This document shows positions 43,887-51,085 of a DNA stretch of 64,000 nucleotides, piece by piece. A program made the position numbers and the translations under genes. Location: assembly GCF_001905545.1 (NCBI RefSeq), contig NZ_LIPD01000002.1, positions 682,001-746,000 of the forward strand, in the 5' to 3' direction. The stretch comes from Streptomyces sp. CB02056. Lineage in GTDB: Bacteria; Actinomycetota; Actinomycetes; Streptomycetales; Streptomycetaceae. The notes beneath the pieces were generated by a model that saw only the letters and a program-made list of their open reading frames with translations, was not told the origin of the DNA and searched no databases. Every line of letters starts with the position of its first letter. Within the stretch, counting starts at the first letter, position 1.

Positions 43887-43963
43887 CGTTGGACGACTCC
43901 GTCCCGCGTTGTCCAGCCGAATTTCGCGGGAACAGGGCTTCTCACCCCTGCGGGTGACAGGAG

Positions 43964-43989
43964 TTGTCCACAGGTCCGAGTTATCCACA
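43964..43989 (+). promoter_or_regulatory. Two tandem DnaA boxes upstream of yraN-comM-dprA
   Basis: TTGTCCACA (43964-43972, the Streptomyces DnaA-box consensus) and TTATCCACA (43981-43989, the E. coli consensus) lie 17 bases apart in the same orientation, followed by the palindrome CGGGAATTCCCG (43995-44006). They are 66 bases from the yraN start. DnaA-dependent regulation is inferred. Confidence 0.6.
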
Positions 43990-44054
43990 GGGAACGGGAA
44001 TTCCCGGGCCTCGCCGTGCGCGTTGGGGCAGCCTCCTCGGCGGAGGTGGTCACC

Positions 44055-44558
44055 ATGCAGCACACCGTCGTGCAGGACCAGGCCGTACCGGACACGGCCG
44101 CAGCCGGGAAGGCCCCGCGGGCGATCCCGGACCGCAGCACCAGGAACGGGCTCGGCCGGTACGGGGAGCGGGTCGCCGCCCGCCGCCTCGCGGAGGCCGG
44201 GCTCCGCATCCTGGACCTCAACTGGCGCTGCGCCGAGGGCGAGCTGGACATCGTCGCCCTCGACGGCGACACCGTGGCGGTCTGCGAGGTGAAGACCCGC
44301 TCCGAGCGGGGTTTCCAGCAGCCGACCGAGGCCATCGACCGGGCCAAGGCCGCCCGGCTGCAACGCCTGGCCGAGCGCTGGATGGCCGAGCGCTGGCCCG
44401 ATCACTTCGCCCGGCTGGCCGGCCCCGGCTACGACCCGGGGCCCACCGATCCACAGTGGCCTCCCGCCCCACCGGGCGGGGTGCGGATCGACCTGGTCGC
44501 GGTGGTCAACCGGGCGCGGGGTGCGGCCCTGGTCGACCACCTGCGGGGGGTGGTCTGA
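44055..44558 (+). CDS. yraN: YraN family (UPF0102) endonuclease-like protein
   Basis: The 167-residue protein has the restriction-endonuclease-like fold of UPF0102: [16 protein letters not shown], then GELDIV (62-67) and EVKTRS (78-83), which supply the acidic/lysine metal-binding triad. A disordered N-terminus (1 to about 32) is present. GGAGG lies eight bases before the ATG at 44055; a GTG-type start at 44016 is less likely. It is followed after one base by comM, so the genes form an operon. The biological role is not established. Confidence 0.9.
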
Positions 44559-44559
44559 G

Positions 44560-46275
44560 ATGGCCTTCGCCCGTACCTGTTCCGTCGCGCTCGTCGGCGT
44601 CGACGGAGTGATCGTCGAGGTCCAGGCCGATCTGGAGCCCGGGGTGGCCGCGTTCACCCTGGTCGGCCTGCCCGACAAGGCGCTCACCGAGGCCCGCGAC
44701 CGGGTCCGTGCCGCGGTCGTGAACAGCGGTGAGGCCTGGCCGCAGCGGAAGCTGACGGTCGGTCTCAGCCCCGCCTCGGTGCCCAAGAGCGGCAGCGGCT
44801 TCGACCTCGCGGTGGCCTGCGCCGTGCTGGCCGCCGCCGAACGGCTCGACCCCTCCGCCATCGCCGACCTGCTGATCATCGGCGAGCTGGGGCTGGACGG
44901 CCGGGTGCGGCCGGTCAGAGGGGTGCTGCCGTCGGTGCTGGCCGCCGCCGACGCCGGGTACCAGCGGGTCGTGGTCGCCGAGCAGACCGCACCCGAGGCC
45001 TCGCTCGTCCCCGGGGTGACGGTGATCGGCGTCCGCAGCCTGCGCCAGCTCGTCGCCATCCTGACCGGCGCGGCGGCACCGGAGGAGCCGCCCGATCCGA
45101 TCGGGGGCAGGCCCGATCCGCTGATGGCCGGCCTGATGCTGCCCAGCGCCGGCGTGCGGGGCCTGCCCGACGACAGGGCGGCCCGGCTGGACATGGCCGA
45201 CGTGGCCGGCCAGTACGAGGCCCGACGGGCGCTGGAGATCGCCGCGGCCGGAGGGCACCACCTCTACCTGAAGGGCCCGCCGGGCGCGGGCAAGACGATG
45301 CTGGCGGAGCGGTTGCCCGCGCTGCTCCCGCCGCTGACCCAGAAGGAGGCGCTGGAGGTCACCGCCGTCCACTCGGTGGCGGGGCTGCTCCCGGCCGGGC
45401 GCCCACTGATCGACACCGCGCCCTACTGTGCCCCACACCACTCCACGACGATGCCGGCCATCGTCGGCGGCGGCAGTGGTATGCCGAGACCGGGAGCGGT
45501 CTCGCTGGCCCACCGGGGCGTGCTCTTCCTGGACGAGGCACCGGAGTTCCCGGTCCGGGTGCTCGACGCGCTGCGCCAGCCGCTGGAGTCGGGCGAGGTG
45601 GTGATCGCCCGCTCGGCCGGATCACTGCGGCTCCCGGCCCGCTTCCTGCTCTGCCTGGCGGCCAACCCCTGTCCGTGCGGCCGGTATTCGCGGCGGGGCG
45701 AGGGCTGTGAGTGCACCCCCGCCATGGTCAGCCGCTACCAGGGGCGGCTCTCCGGGCCGCTGCTGGACCGGGTCGACCTCCAGGTCCAGGTGGCCCCGGT
45801 GACCAGGGTCGAGCTCATGGAACGGGACACCACGGCGGAGACCACCGAGACCGTCGCGGCCCGGGTGCTGGCCGCGCGGGAGCGGGCGGCGGCCCGGCTG
45901 GCGAACACCCCGTGGCGGACCAACGCGGAGGTCCCGGGCCACGAGCTGCGCACCCGCTGGCAGCTCACGGCCGGCGCACTCAACGACGCCGCACGGCAGT
46001 TGGAGCGGGGGCTGCTGACCGCCCGGGGCCTGGACCGGGTGCTCCGGGTCGCCTGGACGGTGGCCGACCTCGCCGGCCGCGACCGGCCGGACCAACGGGA
46101 CGTGCGCACCGCCCTGGTCCTGCGCACCGGGGTGGAGCACGGACTGCCGCTGACCGAGCGGGTCTTCGGGCGGCTCGGTGGGATCCCGGCCCAGCGCGCC
46201 AGCCCGGACGGCGACTTGTCCGGGGAGCCCGAGGCGCCTGACGAGCGTTCGCGAAACCAGAAGGGTGAGGCATGA
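44560..46275 (+). CDS. comM: YifB/ComM-family Mg-chelatase-like AAA ATPase
   Basis: The 571-residue protein has an N-terminal Lon-protease-like fold (VGLPDKALTEARDRV, about 32-46), the AAA core with Walker A GPPGAGKT (239-246) and VLFLDEAPEF, and a cysteine cluster NPCPCGRYSRRGEGC (about 369-383). ComM is the helicase that drives branch migration during natural transformation in Vibrio/Haemophilus; the role in streptomycetes is not settled. The ATG at 44560 follows GGGGGG. The stop overlaps the dprA start (ATGA). Confidence 0.92.
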   Translation: MAFARTCSVALVGVDGVIVEVQADLEPGVAAFTLVGLPDKALTEARDRVRAAVVNSGEAWPQRKLTVGLSPASVPKSGSGFDLAVACAVLAAAERLDPSAIADLLIIGELGLDGRVRPVRGVLPSVLAAADAGYQRVVVAEQTAPEASLVPGVTVIGVRSLRQLVAILTGAAAPEEPPDPIGGRPDPLMAGLMLPSAGVRGLPDDRAARLDMADVAGQYEARRALEIAAAGGHHLYLKGPPGAGKTMLAERLPALLPPLTQKEALEVTAVHSVAGLLPAGRPLIDTAPYCAPHHSTTMPAIVGGGSGMPRPGAVSLAHRGVLFLDEAPEFPVRVLDALRQPLESGEVVIARSAGSLRLPARFLLCLAANPCPCGRYSRRGEGCECTPAMVSRYQGRLSGPLLDRVDLQVQVAPVTRVELMERDTTAETTETVAARVLAARERAAARLANTPWRTNAEVPGHELRTRWQLTAGALNDAARQLERGLLTARGLDRVLRVAWTVADLAGRDRPDQRDVRTALVLRTGVEHGLPLTERVFGRLGGIPAQRASPDGDLSGEPEAPDERSRNQKGEA

Positions 46276-47468
46276 ACCAGTTGCTGAGGCAACCTCGAAT
46301 TCCCGGTGGTTCCGATGCCGGGCCCGGCCCCGGGGCCACCACCGAGACCGAGCCGGAACGCCTCGCCCGGGTGCTGCTCGGCCGACTCAGCGAGCCGGGG
46401 GACGCGGTGGTCGGTCGATGGCTCGCTCAACTTCCCGCCGTCGACGTGGTGAAGGCGATCCGGGACGGGACGGTGCCAGACCACCCGGGACTGGACGCCA
46501 CCCGACTGTCCGGGTACCAGGCGCGGCTTCCGGGGCTGGACCCGCGGATGGACCTGAAACGGGTACGGGACGTCGGTGGGCGGTTCATCATTCCGGGGGA
46601 TACGGAATGGCCCAGCCAACTCGACGACCTGGGTGACGGACGCCCGATCGGGCTCTGGGTGACGGGCACCGGCTCGCTGCGGCTGCTCGCGCTCCGCTCG
46701 GTCGCGATGGTGGGCTCCCGCGCCTGTACGGCCTACGGCGCCCACGTCGCGGGGGAGCTGTCCGCCCAACTGGCCGAACGCGGCTGGGTGGTCGTCTCCG
46801 GAGCCGCCTACGGGATCGACGCGGCCGCGCACCGCGGGGCGCTCGCGGTCGGTGGGACGACCGCCGCCGTACTCGCCTGCGGCGTCGACGTGGCCTATCC
46901 CAAGGGCAACGCCGAACTGATCCGGCGGATCGGCGTCCAGGGCCTGCTGGTCAGCGAACTCCCGCCCGGGGATCACCCGAACCGCTTCCGCTTCGTCCTC
47001 CGCAACCGGGTCATCGCGGCGCTCACCCGGGGGACGGTGGTGGTCGAGGCGGCGGTGCGCAGCGGAGCCCTGAGCACGGCCCGACGGGCGCGGGACCTCA
47101 ACCGCCACACCATGGGCGTCGCGGGCCCGGTGACCTCGGAGCTCTCCGCCGGGGTGCACGCCCTGATCCGCAGCGGCGGTGCCACCCTGGTCACCGACGC
47201 GGCCGAGATCACCGAGCTGATCGGGGCGATCGGGGAGGACCTCGCGCCGCAGCGCAGCGGCCCGGTGCTCCCGCGCGACCTGCTGGAGCCGGCGGTGGCC
47301 CGGGTGCTGGAGGCCGTACCGGCGACGGCGGAGGGCGCGCCGGTCGAGCGGCTGGCCCGGCAGTCCGGCCTCCCGCCGGACGAAGTCCTGCAACGGCTCT
47401 ACGAGCTGGGGTCGCTCGGCTACGTGGAGCGGCACGGCGCGCACTGGCGCGTGGTGCGGAGGAGGTGA
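46272..47468 (+). CDS. dprA: DNA processing protein DprA
   Basis: The 398-residue protein loads RecA on single-stranded DNA. The Rossmann core starts MVGSRACTAYGAHVAGELS (about 146) and continues VSGAAYGIDAAAHRGAL and RNRVIAALTRGTVVVEA. A C-terminal winged-helix domain (about 335-398) is present. It overlaps comM by four bases. The yraN-comM-dprA order is conserved in actinobacteria even though most are not known to be competent. Confidence 0.94.
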   Translation: MNQLLRQPRIPGGSDAGPGPGATTETEPERLARVLLGRLSEPGDAVVGRWLAQLPAVDVVKAIRDGTVPDHPGLDATRLSGYQARLPGLDPRMDLKRVRDVGGRFIIPGDTEWPSQLDDLGDGRPIGLWVTGTGSLRLLALRSVAMVGSRACTAYGAHVAGELSAQLAERGWVVVSGAAYGIDAAAHRGALAVGGTTAAVLACGVDVAYPKGNAELIRRIGVQGLLVSELPPGDHPNRFRFVLRNRVIAALTRGTVVVEAAVRSGALSTARRARDLNRHTMGVAGPVTSELSAGVHALIRSGGATLVTDAAEITELIGAIGEDLAPQRSGPVLPRDLLEPAVARVLEAVPATAEGAPVERLARQSGLPPDEVLQRLYELGSLGYVERHGAHWRVVRRR

Positions 47469-49715: not shown

Positions 49716-50420
49716 CTACCCGTCCCCGCCGTCCAGCGGCAGCAGCCGGGCCGTGCCCGCGCCGAAGAGGGCCAGCGGGTCGAGGTAGCGGTTTCCGCGC
49801 AGCAGCCCCCAGTGCAGGCAGTCGCGCCCGGCGCAGTGCCGCCCGTCCGGAGCGAGCAGTCCGATCGCCTGTCCGGCGGCCACCGGGGTGCCGACCGGGA
49901 CGGTGCCGGTGACGGGCAGATAGGTGGTCCGGAGCGGGGGAGAGCCCGAGCCCGGGTGGGAGACGGTCACCACCGGCCGTCCCGCCACCGGCCCGGAGAA
50001 CGTGACCACTCCGGGAGCTGCCGCCCGGACCTCCGCCCCGGGTGCGGCGGCGAGGTCCACCCCCCGGTGCCCGGCGGCCCAGACCTTCGGCGGCGGCTCG
50101 AACCGGCCCAGCACCCCGTCCAGGCCACCCACCGGCCAGGCCCGCGCACCACCCCGCCCGGCCTCGCCGCCCGGGCCCGGGACGCCGACCGCACCGACCG
50201 CACCGACGGCGCCGAAGCCTCCCCAAGCCCGTGAGGCTCCTGAGACGCCCGAGGCATAGGAAGCCCCCGGCGCCGCGAGCACGACCACGAGCACCACCGC
50301 CACCCACAGCGACAGCACCCCGTGAGCCCGCCGACCGGCCCGACCCACCTGGCCCACCTGGCCCACCTGGCCCACCCCGATCACCCCGATCACCCCACCG
50401 AACCACCCGCGACCAGTCAT
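49716..50420 (-). CDS. Secreted M23 (LytM/lysostaphin-type) peptidase-like protein
   Basis: The 234-residue protein has a signal peptide or anchor (about 34-58, [21 protein letters not shown]) and a LytM domain with [20 protein letters not shown]. HxxxD (HRGVD) is intact, but the catalytic HxH appears as CLH (in CLHWGLLRG), so the first histidine is replaced by cysteine; hydrolase activity is doubtful. The start at 50420 (ATG) is the closest reasonable one; longer arginine/glycine-rich frames upstream look artefactual. GQVGQVGQV repeats occur near the N-terminus, from a 9-bp tandem repeat at about 50343-50371. A cell-wall role is inferred. Confidence 0.75.
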
Positions 50421-51085
50421 GCCCGCAGGCTCGCCCCCGCGCCGCCCCCGCACCACCCACATCCGGATTCCTGTGGACAAACCGCCCCCACGCCCGAGCG
50501 CCATCCCCCGGGCGGGTGTACGGGCGCCGCCATCCGGTGTACAAACGGCATACCGGCGACGGACCCGGGGCAGGCGGTCGACCGACCCGCGTCCGCCCCC
50601 GCACCCGCCTCCGCGCCCACGCCGAGCTCCACCTCCGACTCCACCCCCGGCCGCCCCGCGCGACCCGCCCCGACCCCGCCGCCGCCCCACGGGAACGCTG
50701 CCGCAGCCCCACCGGAACCCGCCCACCCCGGCCGTTCCCCGGGCTCCTCCCAGGTCCTCGGCGGGCCCCCGGCCACGCGTGGAGTCGCCCGCCCCTCGGC
50801 GCTTCCCGTACACTTCACACGCGACCCGGTCCGCCGGGTCGACTTCGCACGCCCCGCCACCGGCGGCCGGACGCGGTTCGTCCGCAGCCCCGCCAGGTGC
50901 GAGTGCCGCTCGGTCCGCCGAGCCCGACCGGCCCCCGGGCCGGAAGGGTGGTAGCGGCTCGGCACGTTCGGGGCGTCAGGCGTGGCTGTCACCTGGCCGC
51001 CACGGACAAACCGAGACTGACCCGGCTGTGGGCTATCGCTGCGACGCAGTGCCGCTGCCGGGCCGTAACACCAAGGAGTACGGCA
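50421..51085. other. 665-base region upstream of rpsB
   Basis: No gene is supported although several overlapping frames are open. It carries a DnaA box (listed separately), a TACACT -10-like hexamer (50809-50814) without a good -35, and two hairpins, CTCGG-tccg-CCGAG (50909-50922) and CCGGCCC-cc-GGGCCGG (50928-50943). It should contain the rpsB promoter and leader. Confidence 0.45.
50472..50480 (-). promoter_or_regulatory. Single DnaA box upstream of the M23-like gene
   Basis: TGTGGACAA on the plus strand is the reverse complement of TTGTCCACA, an exact Streptomyces-type DnaA box. It is 52 bases upstream of the M23-like start and far from rpsB. Confidence 0.5.

Follow-up and report, generated by a model that had tools for sequence, protein, structure and literature searches.

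A conserved tandem-box promoter element that probably marks a competence-type gene set in Streptomyces and other actinomycetes

Results

The window, by which we mean the whole 64-kb stretch of Streptomyces sp. CB02056 DNA that was analysed, carries a presumed operon for DNA processing. Its first gene is yraN (44055..44558, +; Pfam UPF0102, E 2.2e-22), followed by comM, encoding a YifB-type Mg-chelatase-like AAA ATPase (44560..46275, +; Pfam Mg_chelatase, E 5.7e-87; TIGR00368 above cut-off), and dprA (46272..47468, +; Pfam DNA_processg_A, E 8.8e-64; TIGR00732 above cut-off). An M23 peptidase gene, a possible further target of the element described below, lies at 49716..50420 on the minus strand (Pfam Peptidase_M23, E 3.1e-13). 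The ATG starts of yraN (44055) and of the M23 gene are our choice.

Two boxes precede yraN. Box 1, GTTGTCCACA (43963..43972, +), has counterparts 5' of yraN, comEA and ssd in relatives, and box 2, GTTATCCACAG (43980..43990, +), repeats it directly with a period of 17. Taken as a 10-mer, box 2 is GTTATCCACA (43980-43989), and both boxes are of the GTTRTCCACA type. The sequence-only reading had described two exact DnaA-box 9-mers in tandem, 17 bases apart, and was right on both counts: TTGTCCACA (43964-43972) and TTATCCACA (43981-43989), both on the plus strand, match TTRTCCACA, and their starts are 17 bp apart, which leaves 8 bp between the boxes. TTRTNCACA occurs three times in the 64-kb window, compared with 0.28 expected, and none of 100 shuffles reached three. 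Apart from the pair itself (two exact boxes within 26 bp), a scan restricted to exact TTRTNCACA, weaker boxes lying outside it, found none within 6 kb. The third match of the window is a single TTGTCCACA at 50472-50480 on the minus strand, about 50 bp 5' of the M23 gene. It is possibly a remnant of the same paired element, having no clear box 1. A full pair stands 5' of M23 genes in three relatives (L162, L169, L171).

Genome-wide (9.54 Mb), we found two copies of the extended pair GTTRTCCACAGG-N5-GTTRTCCACAGG and five of the looser pattern TTRTCCACA-N0..30-TTRTCCACA, the controls giving zero in both cases (for the extended pair, the pattern read backwards). The dnaA gene lies on a contig other than the window's contig (C12). 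Pattern search placed pairs 5' of comEA-comEC (C1:131432), 5' of a DUF6099 gene (C1:21692), between fmdB-like and mscL-like genes (C12:44616, -), between pheA- and serS-like genes (C23:849960, -; locus L157) and, with three mismatches, 5' of ssd at the head of a Tad-pilus locus (C23:391527, -); a pair spaced by 12 bp lies at C23:721659. Pfam confirmed the genome's own comEA (HHH_3, SLBB), ComEC (Competence, E 5.9e-39) and DUF6099 genes. The ssd label derives from a relative's protein that scores above the TIGR03815 cut-off and is 87% identical to the protein of this genome, and a TadA homologue 3' of ssd was recognised by tblastn (40.6% identity over 323 residues). The names fmdB, mscL, pheA, serS, recA and ImmA/IrrE were given by eye only.

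The gene before mscL (L003 4239-4514, -) encodes 92 amino acids here and 231 in L012, and is possibly shortened or mis-called. A profile scan of its product, in the window genome and in L012, gave no match to a SAF domain; its link to a SAF-positive protein of family f33, of which the first 120 residues were scanned, is one of synteny. In a review, SCO2567-2568 of S. coelicolor is termed the 'Competence operon' (PMC4255298).

Next, we examined conservation within Streptomycetaceae. TTRTCCACAGG-N2..9-TTRTCCACAGG is present in 71 of 150 sampled genomes and in 11 of 17 genera, its backwards control giving zero in each genome. For a gene-centred scan, 30 loci per gene were taken from 46 searched genomes, one comEA locus (L077) being dropped as it had no oriented hit. 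The element (at most 4 mismatches in 18) was found at 22 of 30 yraN, 22 of 29 comEA and 23 of 30 ssd loci and was not found at the remaining eight, seven and seven, respectively. Reverse-complement, reverse and complement controls yielded 0/267, and base shuffles 2/445.

Close relatives keep both boxes 5' of yraN, as the earlier reading had required of a genuine site. Among the best 32 of 80 named yraN loci (L407-L438; 20 titled Kitasatospora, 11 Streptomyces, 1 Saccharothrix), 30 have the pair with at most one mismatch, L419 and L420 being the exceptions, and in 28 the pair is perfect. The first three listed YraN matches come from Streptomyces sp. LS1784 (93%), Streptomyces sp. CBMA156 (93%) and Kitasatospora sp. 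SUK 42 (87%). A pair of period 18 (at most 3 mismatches) is present in 15 of the 21 Streptomyces-titled loci of L439-L464. In an alignment of 33 yraN promoters, box 1 is well conserved except for its third base, and the columns of box 2 show about 60-89% identity. Given the pattern controls and this conservation, which already refutes it, chance similarity has a vanishingly small probability.

Scanning 13 genomes with three mismatches allowed returned 48 sites of period 17 and 49 of period 18 (controls 0 and 1, respectively). We inspected 60 of these 97 sites (L129-L188) for the first downstream match, some of the query proteins having been drawn from the same loci. The match was yraN in 11 cases, comEA in 10, DUF6099 and serS in 8 each, ssd in 7, mscL in 4, M23 in 3, SSB and DUF4192 in 2 each, and none in 5. 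The DUF6099 gene (L489 1845-2570) is thus a recurrent member of the set. The eight sites before serS-like genes lack the palindrome described below; these eight may be something else, and they show that pairs do not stand before uptake genes alone. The pheA/serS-type interval holds two to three TCCACAG boxes, likewise without palindrome, in 8 loci. In L182 and L139 a pair lies between divergent genes for a recQ-like helicase and a DUF4192 protein (Pfam for L182). We also observed the string CAAGATCATC after the second box at yraN, comEA and ssd promoters of several genera (L120, L122, L128, L065, L085).

The set of targets changes the picture of a single controlled operon. Yra​N-comM-dprA stands as a target, but it belongs to a broader group of genes for DNA uptake: the element also precedes comEA-comEC, the Tad locus (with ssd first), the gene before mscL and DUF6099, and relatives add ssb, the M23 peptidase gene and DUF4192. 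One cis element is common to uptake and processing genes.

The pair has been said to adjoin a palindrome, and there is in fact one on each side. The 3' palindrome, to which the earlier reading referred, is the EcoRI-like CGGGAATTCCCG (43995-44006), whose column identity is only about 10-59% in the 33 aligned sequences; owing to this poor conservation we do not count it as part of the element, and it is probably irrelevant. The 5' one is well conserved. It is the 16-bp TCACCCCTGCGGGTGA (43942..43957), a candidate site for BldM (or BldM-WhiI) that fits TCACcCgnncGgGTGA, the BldM Group I consensus given in PMC4125116, having its TCAC and GTGA ends and inner C and G. A near-identical motif came out of a motif search in S. 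griseus (PMC8914203). Of 67 promoters with the element, 60 have TCACYC-N4-GRGTGA (at most 3 mismatches in 12) 5' of box 1, compared with 31 of 9960 control windows. Gaps of 2-6 bp between palindrome and box 1 were scanned, and those found were mostly 4-5 bp. Gap and period are coupled: among the 60, the combination (4, 18) occurs 32 times, (5, 17) 18 times and others 10 times, so in 50 of 60 box 2 lies at a constant 22 bp from the end of the palindrome. The element as a whole thus consists of a palindrome and two GTTNTCCACA direct repeats 17-18 bp apart, with near-fixed mutual distances. While the palindrome resembles BldM Group I sites in its fit to their consensus, it differs from them in having a tandem repeat beside it, mostly at 4-5 bp. 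The targets that PMC4125116 names in the parts consulted are developmental genes (whiB, ssgR, smeA-sffA, whiE), and the terms 'DNA uptake' and 'Flp' do not occur in its main text.

DnaA-box clusters that affect replication are known in S. coelicolor, and the boxes studied here are good DnaA boxes. They might accordingly titrate DnaA or tune replication and leave the adjacent genes unaffected, as was suggested for this site. We consider this highly improbable. Each site has only two boxes and not a dense cluster, their orientation and spacing are fixed, an upstream palindrome accompanies them, and the same few promoters carry them across genera.

To see how far the element extends, we turned to the class. 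Of 168 genomes searched, 156 gave a ComEA match, 143 of them lying outside Streptomycetaceae. From 76 of these 143, comEA upstream regions were sampled and 74 kept (L266 and L272 were too short). In the 74 loci, TCCACA occurs 94 times in forward orientation, compared with 13, 5 and 10 in the controls, and 58 loci have at least one forward copy, compared with 11 (reverse complement), 5 and 10. In 28 of the 74 loci and 14 of the 31 families, two copies pair within 45 bp (controls 0, 0, 0), the other 17 sampled families showing no TCCACA pair at comEA. The 32 spacings of these pairs fall into two ranges, 17-21 (6) and 26-34 (26, with a peak of 12 at 29), differing by about one helical turn. In L258 (family f17), four GTCGTCCACA repeats follow each other 5' of comEA in exact 31-bp steps.

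Across the class, GTCCACAG-N9..23-GTCCACAG gave 336 matches, compared with 44 for the backwards pattern. Such a pair is present in 103 of 168 genomes (control 27), and at least four sites in 34 (control 1). Spacing is nearly uniform within a family: 29-31 in 16 of 17 sites of f33, 20-21 in 14 of 17 of f11 and 27-30 in 10 of 11 of f9. The genes behind these pairs include, by Pfam, ssb, radC, SAF, tadA (T2SSE), M23 and DUF4192, besides yraN (blastx), a comF-like phosphoribosyltransferase gene (weak Pfam match) and recA (by eye). Two SSBs, ssd, comEA, AbiEi-type proteins and, in f9, tadA are also among them. Examples from individual genomes are yraN-comM in G199, SAF with a PD-(D/E)XK nuclease in G230 and recA-/radC-type genes in G163. 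No query protein matched at 32 of the 68 distinct class sites, and at the others many matches were to queries from those same loci; on the opposite side of the sites, 0 of 71 matched. AbiEi-like proteins lie behind a class pair in several families (L305, L308, L329, L337, L373); of the two scanned against AbiEi_4, L373 scores above the Pfam cut-off and L337 below it.

Which protein, then, reads the boxes? Both 9-mers are perfect DnaA boxes, and DnaA is a known transcription factor. If it were the factor, DnaA-ATP bound to the two boxes would switch uptake and processing genes by replication state, a reading that rivals others over the factor and leaves the regulon untouched. We compared the boxes with those of the oriC region, i.e. 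77 exact TTNTCCACA located 3' of dnaA in 30 genomes of the family, in which G precedes the 9-mer in 61% and follows it in 77%. Box 2 (n=72) has G before in 85%, the leading G being part of the selection, and G after in 97%. This shared G-TTNTCCACA-G context speaks for DnaA. The third-base profile of box 2 is also near that of the oriC-region boxes, but that of box 1 is not: in these sets of related rows, T is the third base in 28% of 72 box 1 copies and in 8% of 77 oriC-region boxes.

Comparison with families f33, f11 and f9 likewise leans against DnaA, only the flanks being informative there since GTCCACAG itself was a condition of selection. Their boxes have C as second base in 71-88% of cases, and in f11 and f9 box 2 carries AT after GTCCACAG in 64-88%. 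TTGTCCACA does occur in the dnaA regions of the f33 and f11 genomes examined and, for f9, in that of one genome out of two; in several genomes these same regions also hold TCGTCCACA. Such variants may thus be DnaA boxes, which weakens the second-base argument. With mixed NNNTCCACA boxes, TCG included, in dnaA regions outside the family, oriC-region boxes are no clean discriminator, although the comparison leans against DnaA. What persists of the proposal that DnaA boxes control yraN-comM-dprA is a conserved promoter element whose boxes resemble those of the family's oriC region, including the G after the 9-mer. DnaA itself, judged from these sequence comparisons, is a possible but rather doubtful reader. 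We think it most likely that the boxes are read by another factor, with a site that overlaps the DnaA box.

Discussion

The site described here is, quite probably, one instance of a composite promoter element that co-regulates a competence-type set of genes for DNA uptake and processing. On sequence grounds, the whole looks like a widespread competence-type regulon in actinomycetes. A transcription factor would bind both repeats on one helical face, 5' of the core promoter, and once bound would activate the genes of the set together. In Streptomycetaceae, BldM, perhaps with WhiI, may bind the palindrome, a step that would tie the set to aerial growth or sporulation. The products would form a Tad/ComEA/ComEC uptake machine assisted by DprA, ComM, SSB and a wall hydrolase. 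The boldest version, in which competence of streptomycetes and many other actinomycetes stems from one ancient tandem operator read by DnaA and gated by BldM in Streptomycetaceae, we regard as unlikely.

Competence regulons with shared promoter boxes are known from ComK, the cin-box and CRP-S/Sxy. Like them, the set described here has one cis element before comEA/comEC, dprA, comM and pilus genes and, in relatives, also before ssb, radC, comF-like and recA-like genes. It differs from them in box sequence, in the replacement of ComG/T4P by Tad, in having no known regulator and, in Streptomycetaceae, in the BldM-type palindrome. Streptomycetaceae oriC shares with it the 9-mer and the flanking G, whereas the boxes studied here stand at promoters as a directly repeated pair of fixed phase and, in other families, have often lost the TT.

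Competence of Micrococcus luteus, compared here through its published genes, involves an overlapping gene set: Tad pili, ComEA/EC, a SAF protein and an HTH_17 locus (PMC4322843, PMC8467076). The tad loci are required for its transformation (PMC4322843), and knockout of the SAF gene lowers transformability 10^4-fold (PMC8467076). The parts of these two papers that we consulted, unlike the present work, report no cis element or regulon.

M. luteus also suggests another factor, a BldC-type (HTH_17) protein. In its M-mutants, the comEA/EC promoter shows raised activity in rich medium. Of the 22 sequenced, all except one were hit in a 550-bp region that comprises an HTH_17 gene and, divergent from it, the SAF/CpaB gene; the remaining mutant was altered in a second, likewise annotated gene (PMC8467076). 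BldC, moreover, binds head-to-tail direct repeats (PMC5859096). The BldC repeat, as presented there, is AATTXXXX(C) with a 9-bp period, as opposed to TCCACAG at 17 or 29 bp here, and BldC as direct binder was set aside for this reason. Not every single mutation of the 550-bp region altered the promoter when put back (13-M89; PMC8467076), and beside the mscL locus no HTH_17 gene was recognised by eye in the window genome or in G230. Competence terms searched in PMC6428758 did not occur. An HTH_17 reader seems less likely still than DnaA; the HTH_17/SAF locus of M. luteus is a lead to the regulator and not a match to this motif.

We return to the composite element as a common switch. The literature covered does not establish that streptomycetes undergo natural transformation, and our search, with most subscription papers and all bioRxiv preprints outside its scope, returned no report of the element at com, dpr or tad genes. 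The conservation of the switch hints at an undescribed programme for the uptake of foreign DNA. M. luteus is the actinobacterial model of competence, and since a 2026 paper states that its regulon is unknown (PMC12849477), the element is of high interest and open to direct test. It supplies a bait for the regulator as well as a gene list, and predicts when to look, namely during BldM-active development in Streptomyces. The finding would matter for the exchange of genes between producers of antibiotics and may offer a route to new genetic tools.
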